From positions 1-26,944 of the IMG/VR virus record IMGVR_UViG_3300021960_000418: DNA of 26,944 bases; one strand, 5' to 3'. Positions within the stretch are counted from its first letter, which is position 1. The number at the start of each line of letters is the position of its first letter. This document shows positions 385 to 3,061 of the stretch, piece after piece. Below the pieces are notes generated by a model, which did no database searches, was not told the DNA's origin, and worked only from the letters and a program-made list of their open reading frames with translations. Source of the stretch: a virus. The position numbers were made by a program, and so were the translations under genes.

Positions 385-1545
385 ATGAAATACATAGAAA
401 GAAAAAATAAAATTATAAATGATAAATATACTAAATATGTGTATGAAGCGTTTGACATACAAAACAAAGAAGAAACAATTGTAAAAATACCAATAAACTT
501 TAGTGAATGTAAAACATTTGATTGGAATATTGGTGTAATTTATGGAGGTTCTGGTACTGGTAAAACAACATTATTAAAAGAATTTGGAGATTTAACTTTA
601 GATGAATTTGATGATAAAAAGCCTTTAATTAGTAATTTTGATTGGTTAGATCCAAAAGAAGCAACATTTTTATTGTCATCTATGGGATTAGCATCAGTTC
701 CAACTTGGCTTAGACCATTTAGTTTATTAAGTAATGGAGAACAATATAGAGCATCACTTGCCTATAAAGTTGGTAAAGCAAAAGAAAATGATGTTATATT
801 AATTGATGAGTTTACAAGTGTAGTTGATAGAGATGTTGCAAAAGCAATGAGTAATGCTTTACAAAAATACATAAGGAGAAATAATAAAAAAATAATTCTT
901 GCATCTTGTCATTTTGATATAATGGAATGGTTGTTGCCAGATTGGACTTATTCACCGTTAAAAGGGCGTCTCGAGAGAGCGTCAAGTCGAAGGCAAAGAC
1001 CAAAAATTAAATTACAGATATTTCGATGTAGATATGAAACTTGGAATATATTTAAACAATATCACTATTTAACTGAAGATTTATCTAAAAGTTCAAAATG
1101 TTTTTTAACTACTTGGAATAATAAGCCTGTAGCTTTTAATGCTGTTTTACCTTTACCAAGTGGTACATTAAAAAATGCTTTTAGAATGAGTAGAACAGTT
1201 GTATTGCCTGATTATCAAGGATTAGGGTTAGGTGGATTTGTTAGTGATTATGTTGCTAAATTATACGTAAAAGATGGTAAAAGATTTTATGCTAAAACAT
1301 CAAATCCTGCATTATGGAATAAAAGAGAAAATTCAAATAATTGGAGAGTTTGCGATGTGCAAAACAACTTAGATAAAATTAGAAAAGAAAACGAAAAAGG
1401 AGGACAACAAAGAAAAGTTAGTGTAACAAAATCATTTGAATTTATAGGAAATGTTGATTGTGTAAAAGAAGATCAATTAAACATATTAAAATTTAATGCC
1501 AACGCTTACAAAGAAGTTTCACAAAATCAAATAAGTTTATTTTAA
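385..1545 (+). CDS. ABC-ATPase / GNAT acetyltransferase fusion, candidate DNA base modifier
   Basis: A 386-residue soluble two-domain protein. Residues 1 to about 195 are an ABC-type ATPase: Walker A GGSGTGKTT (54-62), signature-like LSNGEQYRA (115-123), Walker B DVILIDEFTSVVD (136-148) and switch His in ASCHFD (173-178). Residues about 205-345 are a GNAT fold with acetyl-CoA loop VVLPDYQGLGLGG (272-284), preceded by FKQYHYL (223-229). There is no membrane segment and no permease gene nearby, so this is not a transporter. GNAT-fold Mom of phage Mu modifies adenine in DNA, and by analogy this enzyme may modify DNA or another phage macromolecule; that is inference. The extreme C-terminus, QISLF, matches the beta-clamp-binding pentapeptide QL(S/D)LF, which would tether it to replicating DNA. 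It lies between a helicase gene and small genes. The ATG follows an A-rich leader. Domains are certain; substrate is not. Confidence 0.8.
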   Translation: MKYIERKNKIINDKYTKYVYEAFDIQNKEETIVKIPINFSECKTFDWNIGVIYGGSGTGKTTLLKEFGDLTLDEFDDKKPLISNFDWLDPKEATFLLSSMGLASVPTWLRPFSLLSNGEQYRASLAYKVGKAKENDVILIDEFTSVVDRDVAKAMSNALQKYIRRNNKKIILASCHFDIMEWLLPDWTYSPLKGRLERASSRRQRPKIKLQIFRCRYETWNIFKQYHYLTEDLSKSSKCFLTTWNNKPVAFNAVLPLPSGTLKNAFRMSRTVVLPDYQGLGLGGFVSDYVAKLYVKDGKRFYAKTSNPALWNKRENSNNWRVCDVQNNLDKIRKENEKGGQQRKVSVTKSFEFIGNVDCVKEDQLNILKFNANAYKEVSQNQISLF

Positions 1546-1547
1546 AT

Positions 1548-1724
1548 ATGAAAATAGGAGAAAAATTTACTTTTTATAGTAATGGTAAACATAGAAAAGC
1601 TATATTTTTAGAACAAAAAAAAAATAAAATAAAAGCTATTATTTGTGATGAAAAAATGCAAGGTATTAAAGTGGAAATATTTGAGACACAAATAATTGAT
1701 GATAATCAAATTAGTATGTTTTAA
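1548..1724 (+). CDS. 58-residue protein ending in a clamp-binding-like motif
   Basis: A short gene starting two bases after the stop of the ABC/GNAT gene. It encodes 58 residues beginning MKIGEKFTFYSNGKHRKAIF. The protein is basic in its first half (KHRKAIFLEQKKNKIKA), lacks a signal or membrane segment, and may form a small beta-rich fold. Its last five residues, QISMF, closely resemble QISLF at the end of the upstream protein, and both fit the bacterial sliding-clamp-binding consensus QL(S/D)LF. The tight spacing implies co-translation and a shared role. I do not recognise a family. It could be a small partner or adaptor of the ABC/GNAT enzyme. The alternative is that the two similar ends are chance or a short duplication. 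Confidence 0.6.
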   Translation: MKIGEKFTFYSNGKHRKAIFLEQKKNKIKAIICDEKMQGIKVEIFETQIIDDNQISMF

Positions 1725-2162: not shown

Positions 2163-2600
2163 TTGAAAAAAAAAGTAAACATTGCATCTGTAAAAGAAAA
2201 TCCGGACAATCCAAGATTTATAAAAGATTCTAAATTTAAAAAATTATTCAAGTCAATTAAGGCGTTTCCTGAGATGTTAGAGAAAAGGCCAATAGTAGTT
2301 GATGAGAATATGGTTGTTCTTGGCGGAAATATGCGTTTAAAGGCTTGTAAGTCTGCCGGGTTGTTTGAGGTTTGGATTGATATTGCACAAGGTTGGACAG
2401 AAGAACAGAAGCAAGAGTTTATTGTTAAAGACAATGTAGGCTTTGGAGAGTGGGATTGGGATATACTAGCCAATGAATGGGATGTTCAAAAATTAGTAGA
2501 ATGGGGGGTTGATCTACCCGTTTATGATGTTCCTATTGATGACGACCAAGACGACAAAAACGATACAGATAAAGAGGTTTGCGAATTGTGCGGAAAATAA
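2163..2600 (+). CDS. ParB/Srx-fold protein (phage ParB-like nuclease-domain family)
   Basis: A 145-residue protein opening with MKKKVNIASVKENPDNPRFI. NPDNPR (13-18) and LGGNMRLKA (53-61) are the usual ParB N-terminal signatures; the second corresponds to the GERR-type box that binds the nucleotide in ParB CTPases. A segment KDNVGFGEWDWDIL (89-102) follows, as is usual in phage members. In known phages such proteins sit near terminase or methyltransferase genes and are thought to act on DNA; their biochemistry is poorly known. No methyltransferase domain follows here. The acidic tail ends with a CELC pair (140-143) that could bind metal. The start must be TTG at 2163, because the next in-frame ATG would remove the NPDNPR motif. 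The promoterless 8-base gap ties it to the upstream operon, which ends at the terminator at 2688. Confidence 0.75.
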   Translation: MKKKVNIASVKENPDNPRFIKDSKFKKLFKSIKAFPEMLEKRPIVVDENMVVLGGNMRLKACKSAGLFEVWIDIAQGWTEEQKQEFIVKDNVGFGEWDWDILANEWDVQKLVEWGVDLPVYDVPIDDDQDDKNDTDKEVCELCGK

Positions 2601-2793: not shown

Positions 2794-3024
2794 ATGAAAA
2801 TTATTAAGAATTATTTTTGGAATCACGAATATAGACACGAAATGAGAACATTGAAGCCATCTAGAAAAATGGATGTATATAATGTATTTTTGAAATTTAA
2901 TTTAGATCCTAGTGAATCATCTGATTTACATTATCAATTAATTTGTGAAGTTGTTGGAGATTATACAATACAAGGAGAAGATATTAATCAAAAACAAATA
3001 AGATTACAAAATTCTTACATATAA
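2794..3024 (+). CDS. Hypothetical 76-aa protein in a stand-alone cassette
   Basis: The frame can be extended upstream to a TTG at 2770, but that codon lies within the promoter -7 box, so the ATG at 2794 is the start. The 76-residue product begins MKIIKNYFWNHEYRHEMRTL and is probably mostly helical, with an amphipathic middle (MDVYNVFLKFNLD) and a polar tail (GEDINQKQIRLQNSYI). It has no signal peptide, Cys or known motif. The gene has its own promoter and a terminator on each side, which is the layout of a phage moron. Function is unknown; candidates for such genes are host takeover or anti-defence proteins, with no direct support here. Confidence 0.6.
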   Translation: MKIIKNYFWNHEYRHEMRTLKPSRKMDVYNVFLKFNLDPSESSDLHYQLICEVVGDYTIQGEDINQKQIRLQNSYI

Positions 3025-3061
3025 AATTATAAACCATTAAATAAAAAAAATACAAGTTAAA

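Follow-up and report, generated by a model that had tools for sequence, protein, structure and literature searches.

A putative C-terminal sliding clamp-binding motif on a predicted phage DNA-modifying enzyme and its small neighbour

A predicted acyl-type DNA-modifying enzyme of a phage ends in the pentapeptide QISLF, and the protein encoded immediately downstream ends in QISMF. Both endings resemble the motif by which bacterial proteins bind the beta sliding clamp, DnaN. The motif is conserved at the tip of a variable tail and recurs on unrelated phage DNA-modification enzymes and on phage DNA polymerases. Judging from these sequence properties, the enzyme is quite probably tethered to host DnaN, where it would modify new phage DNA behind the replication fork.

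The two genes

The window analysed here, a virus record of 26,944 bases, has been classified as linear and may be a fragment. Its open reading frames include genes that read as terminase-, portal- and tail-like, as in tailed phages. The first-pass annotation had described an ABC/GNAT protein ending in QISLF and, two bases downstream, a second gene ending in QISMF. Translation of the open reading frames reproduces both endings to the base (Table 1), and the gap is that of positions 1546–1547.

Table 1. Features of the window around the two genes with clamp motif-like endings
Feature	Position	Strand	Remarks
ABC-ATPase/GNAT fusion protein (P0001), 386 aa, predicted DNA-base acyl-modification enzyme	385..1545	+	stop 1543-1545
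ABC ATPase domain of P0001, ~residues 1-205, limits approximate	385..999	+	invariant columns
GNAT domain of P0001, ~residues 206-355, CoA loop Q278-G-x-G-x-G283	1000..1449	+	
Variable C-terminal extension of P0001, residues 356-381, missing in distant homologues	1450..1527	+	
QISLF, predicted C-terminal clamp-binding motif of P0001, residues 382-386	1528..1542	+	sequence, homologue conservation
58-aa protein (P0002), predicted SH3/Tudor-like small beta-barrel	1548..1724	+	stop 1722-1724
QISMF, predicted C-terminal clamp-binding motif of P0002, on disordered end	1707..1721	+	
ParB/nuclease-like protein, context only, possibly same modification module	2163..2600	+	
Candidate clamp-binding peptides of the two proteins (QISLF, QISMF)			YKEVSQNQISLF and TQIIDDNQISMF

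Another open reading frame of the window (positions 1–372) encodes a primase/helicase-like protein that ends in TDDNVPF and thereby resembles the acidic C-terminal tip of SSB. Its relatives have diverged middles and end in DDDVPF, DNLPF, DDEFPF or SFDNLPF. Perhaps this protein mimics SSB to reach SSB-binding proteins.

Conservation of the C-terminal motif

The published clamp motif is Q-phi-x-[LM]-[FL] or Q-phi-x-[LM]-x-[FL] (PMC11139829). QISLF and QISMF of the window, which the first-pass annotation had likened to the consensus QL(S/D)LF, both fit it, and so does QISMPL, the ending of a P0002 homologue in L102.

The tail was analysed in 40 representative homologues of P0001 (<88% identity, pairwise 55–88%). 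Q382 and F386 are the sole invariant columns in the last 66 (40/40 homologues), and the linker mostly varies, at about 2–3 bits per column. Position 2 of the motif is I, L, T or V, position 3 is mostly S, and position 4 is L, M or I; this variation stays mostly inside the tolerance of the clamp motif. The last part of the P0001 tail is modelled with low confidence, with a pLDDT of 54 for residues 371–380 and of 46 for residues 381–386. The invariant Gln and Phe thus lie in a variable and flexible context, as is expected of clamp motifs. Conservation of the last five residues against varying flanks had been the check proposed in advance, and the alignment bears it out.

Proteins of the window's clade have ∼30 residues beyond the GNAT core, and distant homologues end at the core (...SFKYIG). 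A second related clade displays a different tail, LLLPIDKLRYNEEHKFQL[NAT]LF, which still ends in QL[NAT]LF. In addition, a relative of the PX29 protein (L145) ends in DDKQISLF. A tree of 69 proteins explains the motif by three changes; in the region of the tree where the motif prevails, it is missing from the homologues in pT24, vB_VmeM-32 and PX29. At the level of sequence comparison, these relationships show that the motif was gained or lost while the catalytic core stayed.

Two irregular genes were seen among these relatives. In L064, NQISLF is immediately preceded by an in-frame TAA (∼3006–3030) in a homologue that is otherwise intact, and this is either a natural loss of the tail or a sequencing error. 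The annotation of the pT24 gene (L003:4001-5173) splits it into two pieces separated by a gap.

Recurrence of the motif on other phage enzymes

The DNA of QISLF followed by a stop codon (QISLF*) was sought in 2.9 million viral contigs, with the same-codon scramble IQSLF* as a control. QISLF* is found in 47 places, and in 29 of these it ends an open reading frame of at least 60 aa. The scramble is found in 23 places, none of which ends such a frame (0/23). The scan yields 21 distinct QISLF proteins, and all of those that can be assigned are DNA polymerases or DNA-modification enzymes. They comprise ABC-GNAT proteins, DNA polymerases, N6/N4 methyltransferases, a Mom protein (L178; PF25680 match 6e-37) and TET-associated glycosyltransferases (TAGT; PF20691 match 9e-22). 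Two proteins, of 76 aa and 174 aa, have no assignable function. Apart from these QISLF proteins, an ABC-GNAT protein that ends in QISMF is encoded on L105, a contig assigned to a Woesearchaeota MAG; this contig is more likely a mis-binned Bacteroidota phage.

A second count used 1101 proteins that are encoded near ABC-GNAT or P0002 genes and are homologous to neither, with loci from the QISLF* scan left out. The pattern Q..[LMI]F stands at the exact C-terminus of 14 of them. The expected number is a mean of 0.25 per offset over offsets 1–60, or 1.24 from C-terminal composition. DNA-modification enzymes make up ten of the 14, namely five methyltransferases of the N6 type, three of the C5 type and two glycosyltransferases resembling TAGT; five of these enzymes are assigned by profiles or homology and the rest by homology. 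The remaining four belong to one 146-aa family that adjoins ABC-GNAT. Chance is ruled out as the source of the motif by the scramble scan, the offset control and the neighbour-only count.

The motif is also kept in relatives that were fetched without a motif pattern: in 12 of 13 TAGT proteins, four of four C5 methyltransferases and six of nine N6 methyltransferases. All distinct complete Mom relatives end in Qxx[LI]F, including QISLF, QTTLF, QIDLF, QGVLF and QKTIF, except L254, which ends in QIKLL. The patterns that fetched ABC-GNAT, Mom and TAGT relatives exclude the pentapeptide, and bias of the search is thereby rejected as an explanation. Variants with Thr, Gly or Gln at position 2 (QTRLF, QGVLF, QQSLF) fall outside the strict consensus. 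Unrelated modifiers with clamp-like ends (N6/N4 and C5 methyltransferases, Mom and TAGT) are found in L150, L189, L004:2666-3265, L022:7917-8558, L104:5767-6438, L178, L157 and L103:2510-3253. The Mom profile has only one match in 296 Bacteroidota genomes. The recurrence of the motif suggests that DNA-modifying enzymes travel with the host replication machinery and mark phage DNA as it is made.

Similar endings are found on two sets of small proteins. In the family of 146–158 aa beside ABC-GNAT (L012:2205-2645, L022:6174-6650 and relatives), several members end in QQLLF, QLTCF or QLKCF and others have no such ending. A 151-aa protein beside a TAGT gene (L261:1544-1999; MKTTNKQKKGFEFESYIMDWF...) ends in QTKLF, and it belongs to a cluster of four proteins that have either this ending or QTKMF.

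Predicted activity of the ABC-GNAT protein

The ABC/GNAT label given to P0001 by the first-pass annotation is correct. The N-terminal half has the features of an ABC ATPase, with a Walker A motif (GGSGTGKT, residues 54–61), an LSGGQ-like signature (LSNGEQ, 115–120), a Walker B motif (ILIDE, 138–142) and an H-loop His176. The C-terminal half has a GNAT fold and a CoA loop, QGLGLG, of the type Q/R-x-x-G-x-G/A. Across 24 homologues, which come from phages that infect many different hosts, most of the residues of the ABC and GNAT motifs, with Q278, G279, G281 and G283 of the CoA loop among them, show little or no variation. P0001 falls in phrog_11143 (E=3e-138), a family whose function is not annotated. 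Pfam profiles match weakly, with Acetyltransf_1 below the cut-off. In the structural model (pTM 0.44), the ABC half is poor and the GNAT core is confident; Foldseek matches its C-terminal half to GNAT structures with E values down to 2e-6. A PDB sequence search with the profile of the P0001 family returned ABC and GNAT fragments only.

The original prediction of a DNA-modification system composed of an ABC ATPase and a GNAT reportedly goes back to Iyer et al. in 2013. ABC-GNAT proteins have been predicted to acylate a DNA base, and phage pT24 of Tenacibaculum is named in this connection (Iyer et al., 2021; PMC7824862). P0001 belongs to the same protein family: the two domains are fused, and the pT24 protein, a member without the motif, is 57% identical over residues 1–321. 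Base acylation is a prediction, and no modified nucleoside from an ABC-GNAT system is reported in the literature examined.

The ABC and GNAT domains of distant phages are either fused or encoded side by side. They are often found beside a ParB-like, terminase, DNA polymerase or PurN-like formyltransferase gene, and ParB-like genes directly adjoin ABC-GNAT in several of these phages. At three loci, a tailless ABC-GNAT is followed by a PurN-like formyltransferase gene (L089:2905-4505, L090:2872-4601 and L100:597-2473; annotated in L089 and L090). This neighbour hints that a formyl group may belong to the modification.

An alternative is that the ABC-GNAT protein, although tethered to the clamp, acylates a replisome or nucleoid protein and not a DNA base. 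Host proteins are the predicted targets of many GNATs encoded by phages (PMC7824862), and the closest solved structures to the GNAT half of P0001 are protein and small-molecule acetyltransferases. However, the same source independently predicts that ABC-GNAT modifies a DNA base, and the fellow carriers of the motif (Mom, TAGT, and N6/N4 and C5 methyltransferases) are DNA modifiers. The location of ABC-GNAT with ParB-like and PurN-like genes in distant phages also argues against a protein substrate, which we consider unlikely.

The small protein and the identity of the clamp

P0002 has seven known family members, including that of the window, and the motif is present in five of them. Four end in QISMF or QISLF, and the fifth is the L102 protein, whose QISMPL represents the hexameric form of the clamp motif. 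The homologues on contigs L103 and L104 stop just before the motif; no ABC-GNAT is seen on these two contigs, which carry the motif on modification enzymes instead. An AlphaFold model, built from an alignment of the window and fetched-contig rows with one database row left out, shows a confident small beta-barrel (pLDDT 84), with residues 55–58 below 50 and disordered. Its nearest shapes are Tudor, KOW and SH3-like barrels (best Z 7.6, for Tudor domains; Foldseek E >0.05), a likeness of common arrangement only.

The view that both genes always travel together was rejected, as P0002 lies beside few ABC-GNAT genes and is also found on contigs that show none. The first-pass annotation had called P0002 the small partner of the modifying enzyme. 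The case is weaker for P0002 than for P0001: the motif is present in five of the seven homologues, and the L103 and L104 proteins lack it and lie on contigs that show no ABC-GNAT. A role as partner is suggested by adjacency.

Neither gp45 nor a DnaN family was found in the cultured Nonlabens phage P12024S, whose gp24 and gp25 are homologues of the two proteins, or in the other motif-bearing records tested; the sequence of the window may be incomplete. Host DnaN is therefore the likely partner of the motif. Homologues without the pentapeptide, which had been named beforehand as evidence against tethering, do exist. However, the distant ones lack the entire tail, and two tailed ones without the motif, those of vB_VmeM-32 and PX29, belong to phages that encode their own gp45. 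EastWest has a DnaN-like clamp and no motif, and gp45 was not found in the motif-less pT24. A rule by which the motif would be present in all relatives that lack a clamp gene was rejected, as many distant homologues are tailless. Those of SL25, Porphyromonas prophages, Komp_PAO1_1, LE4, Pmp13 and Yago84 are of this kind, and no clamp gene was detected in these phages. Thus, the tether is either dispensable for the core function or is provided there by other means.

The hosts display similar motifs. DnaE of Flavobacterium and Bizionia has an internal QVSLF, a UmuC/ImuB-like protein of Flavobacteriaceae has QINLF, and DinB ends in QLKFEF or QLKFAF. Flavobacteriaceae proteins that are expected to bind the clamp thus use what reads as the same kind of motif. 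DnaN of Flavobacteriaceae is a beta clamp of the usual kind, and the region of its pocket looks canonical. The proposal that both proteins of the window are tethered to a host or phage clamp is supported by the conservation test for P0001 and more weakly for P0002, and a host clamp is the predicted and favoured one.

Binding to DnaN could also serve to block or redirect the host replisome, the phage proteins competing with DnaE and DinB and stopping host DNA synthesis. This would fit P0002 best, which is barely more than a barrel and a motif and whose L103 and L104 homologues lie on contigs showing no ABC-GNAT; small clamp-binding blockers are known, such as SocB of Caulobacter (PMC9690074). 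Yet those two homologues themselves have no motif, and on their contigs it is the modification enzymes that bear it. That large catalytic enzymes from several families bear the motif, as do phage DNA polymerases, suits recruitment and not inhibition. A block of DnaN is disfavoured because it would hurt phages that appear to depend on host DnaN, having no clamp gene that was found, and it seems improbable.

It is very doubtful that the ending only looks clamp-like and serves for packing, as a degron or as a nucleotide signal for the next gene. In several phages, the motif does overlap or abut the region where the downstream gene starts, and QN directly before the pentapeptide is also conserved. 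However, the downstream genes and their spacing differ widely, and the codons of the pentapeptide vary synonymously (CAA/CAG, TTT/TTC, and Ser from both the AGT and TCN families), which rules out constraint at the nucleotide level. Six of the 40 homologues continue for 1–5 residues past the Phe, which excludes an end-dependent degron. A different tail that still ends in QLxLF, the substitution of QISMPL for QISMF and the empty scramble control also speak against this reading.

Relation to known systems

The DnaN ring is a dimer, and each of its subunits offers one pocket. In the proposed mechanism, the ABC-GNAT protein would be an ATP-driven, acyl-CoA-dependent phage DNA-modifying enzyme, the flexible C-terminal leash of which docks by QISLF in the peptide pocket of host DnaN. 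The enzyme would thereby be held on newly made DNA just behind the polymerase, and progeny genomes would be modified during copying, before host nucleases act. The QISMF of P0002, a predicted SH3-like barrel, may take the second pocket of the same ring, with P0002 as a putative specificity or DNA-binding accessory. That a single ring might hold the products of both neighbouring genes, one on each subunit, is conjecture.

The closest parallel is a DNA modifier of phage T4. Sommer et al. are said to have described in 2004 that T4 alpha-glucosyltransferase is bound to the gp45 clamp. The binding has been confirmed, but the share of alpha-glucosylation depends mostly on how much enzyme is present rather than on its attachment to the clamp (PMC13216743). 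By analogy, this calls for caution with strong claims for a tether. T4 likewise places a DNA modifier on the sliding clamp and modifies during replication. It differs in that the clamp is the phage-encoded trimeric gp45 and one enzyme is involved, whereas here the clamp is likely the host DnaN dimer and a C-terminal QxxLF is found on several enzyme families.

Bacterial clamp clients such as Pol II, Pol IV and transposases display the same C-terminal Q-phi-x-[LM]-F after a flexible stretch, and the transposases, as mobile-element proteins that use host DnaN, reach host beta by a C-terminal QLxLF (PMC4549789). Unlike the proteins considered here, the clients described in these papers do not include DNA-modification enzymes, and the word "methyltransferase" is absent from a 2024 review of the clamp (PMC11139829). 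The eukaryotic DNMT1–PCNA pair (PMC9690074) likewise couples DNA modification to replication by a clamp tether, but there a PIP box serves the maintenance of host epigenetic marks, and here DnaN would serve protection of the phage genome. The Mom family (PF25680) is also of the GNAT superfamily and modifies DNA, and the Mom relatives identified in this analysis share the Qxx[LI]F ending. P0001 is not a member, with no match to PF25680 at E <= 1, and differs in having an ABC domain.

The enzyme core had already been predicted by Iyer et al., and the available part of PMC7824862 makes no mention of a C-terminal tail or of clamp binding for the ABC-GNAT family. In an incomplete coverage of the literature, we found no report that links the DnaN motif to DNA-modification enzymes, methyltransferases included, of phages or of cells. 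What appears to be new is the tether to the clamp, together with its recurrence in several enzyme families, in that known pieces are combined and recur across unrelated enzymes.

Biological significance

It seems fairly likely that Bacteroidota phages generally hitchhike on the host clamp: ABC-GNAT, Mom, TAGT, and N6/N4 and C5 methyltransferases would each have acquired a DnaN tag, and the host clamp would serve all of them as a shared docking site for hypermodification coupled to replication. It is largely an open question how hypermodified phages alter their DNA quickly enough to evade restriction, for which T4 alpha-glucosyltransferase and gp45 provide the main example that involves a clamp. 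A five-residue tag on unrelated modifiers, pointing to the host clamp, offers a simple, testable rule. A conserved C-terminal QxxLF may also help to spot DNA-modifying enzymes in phage dark matter, perhaps including the 58-aa and 146–158-aa proteins.
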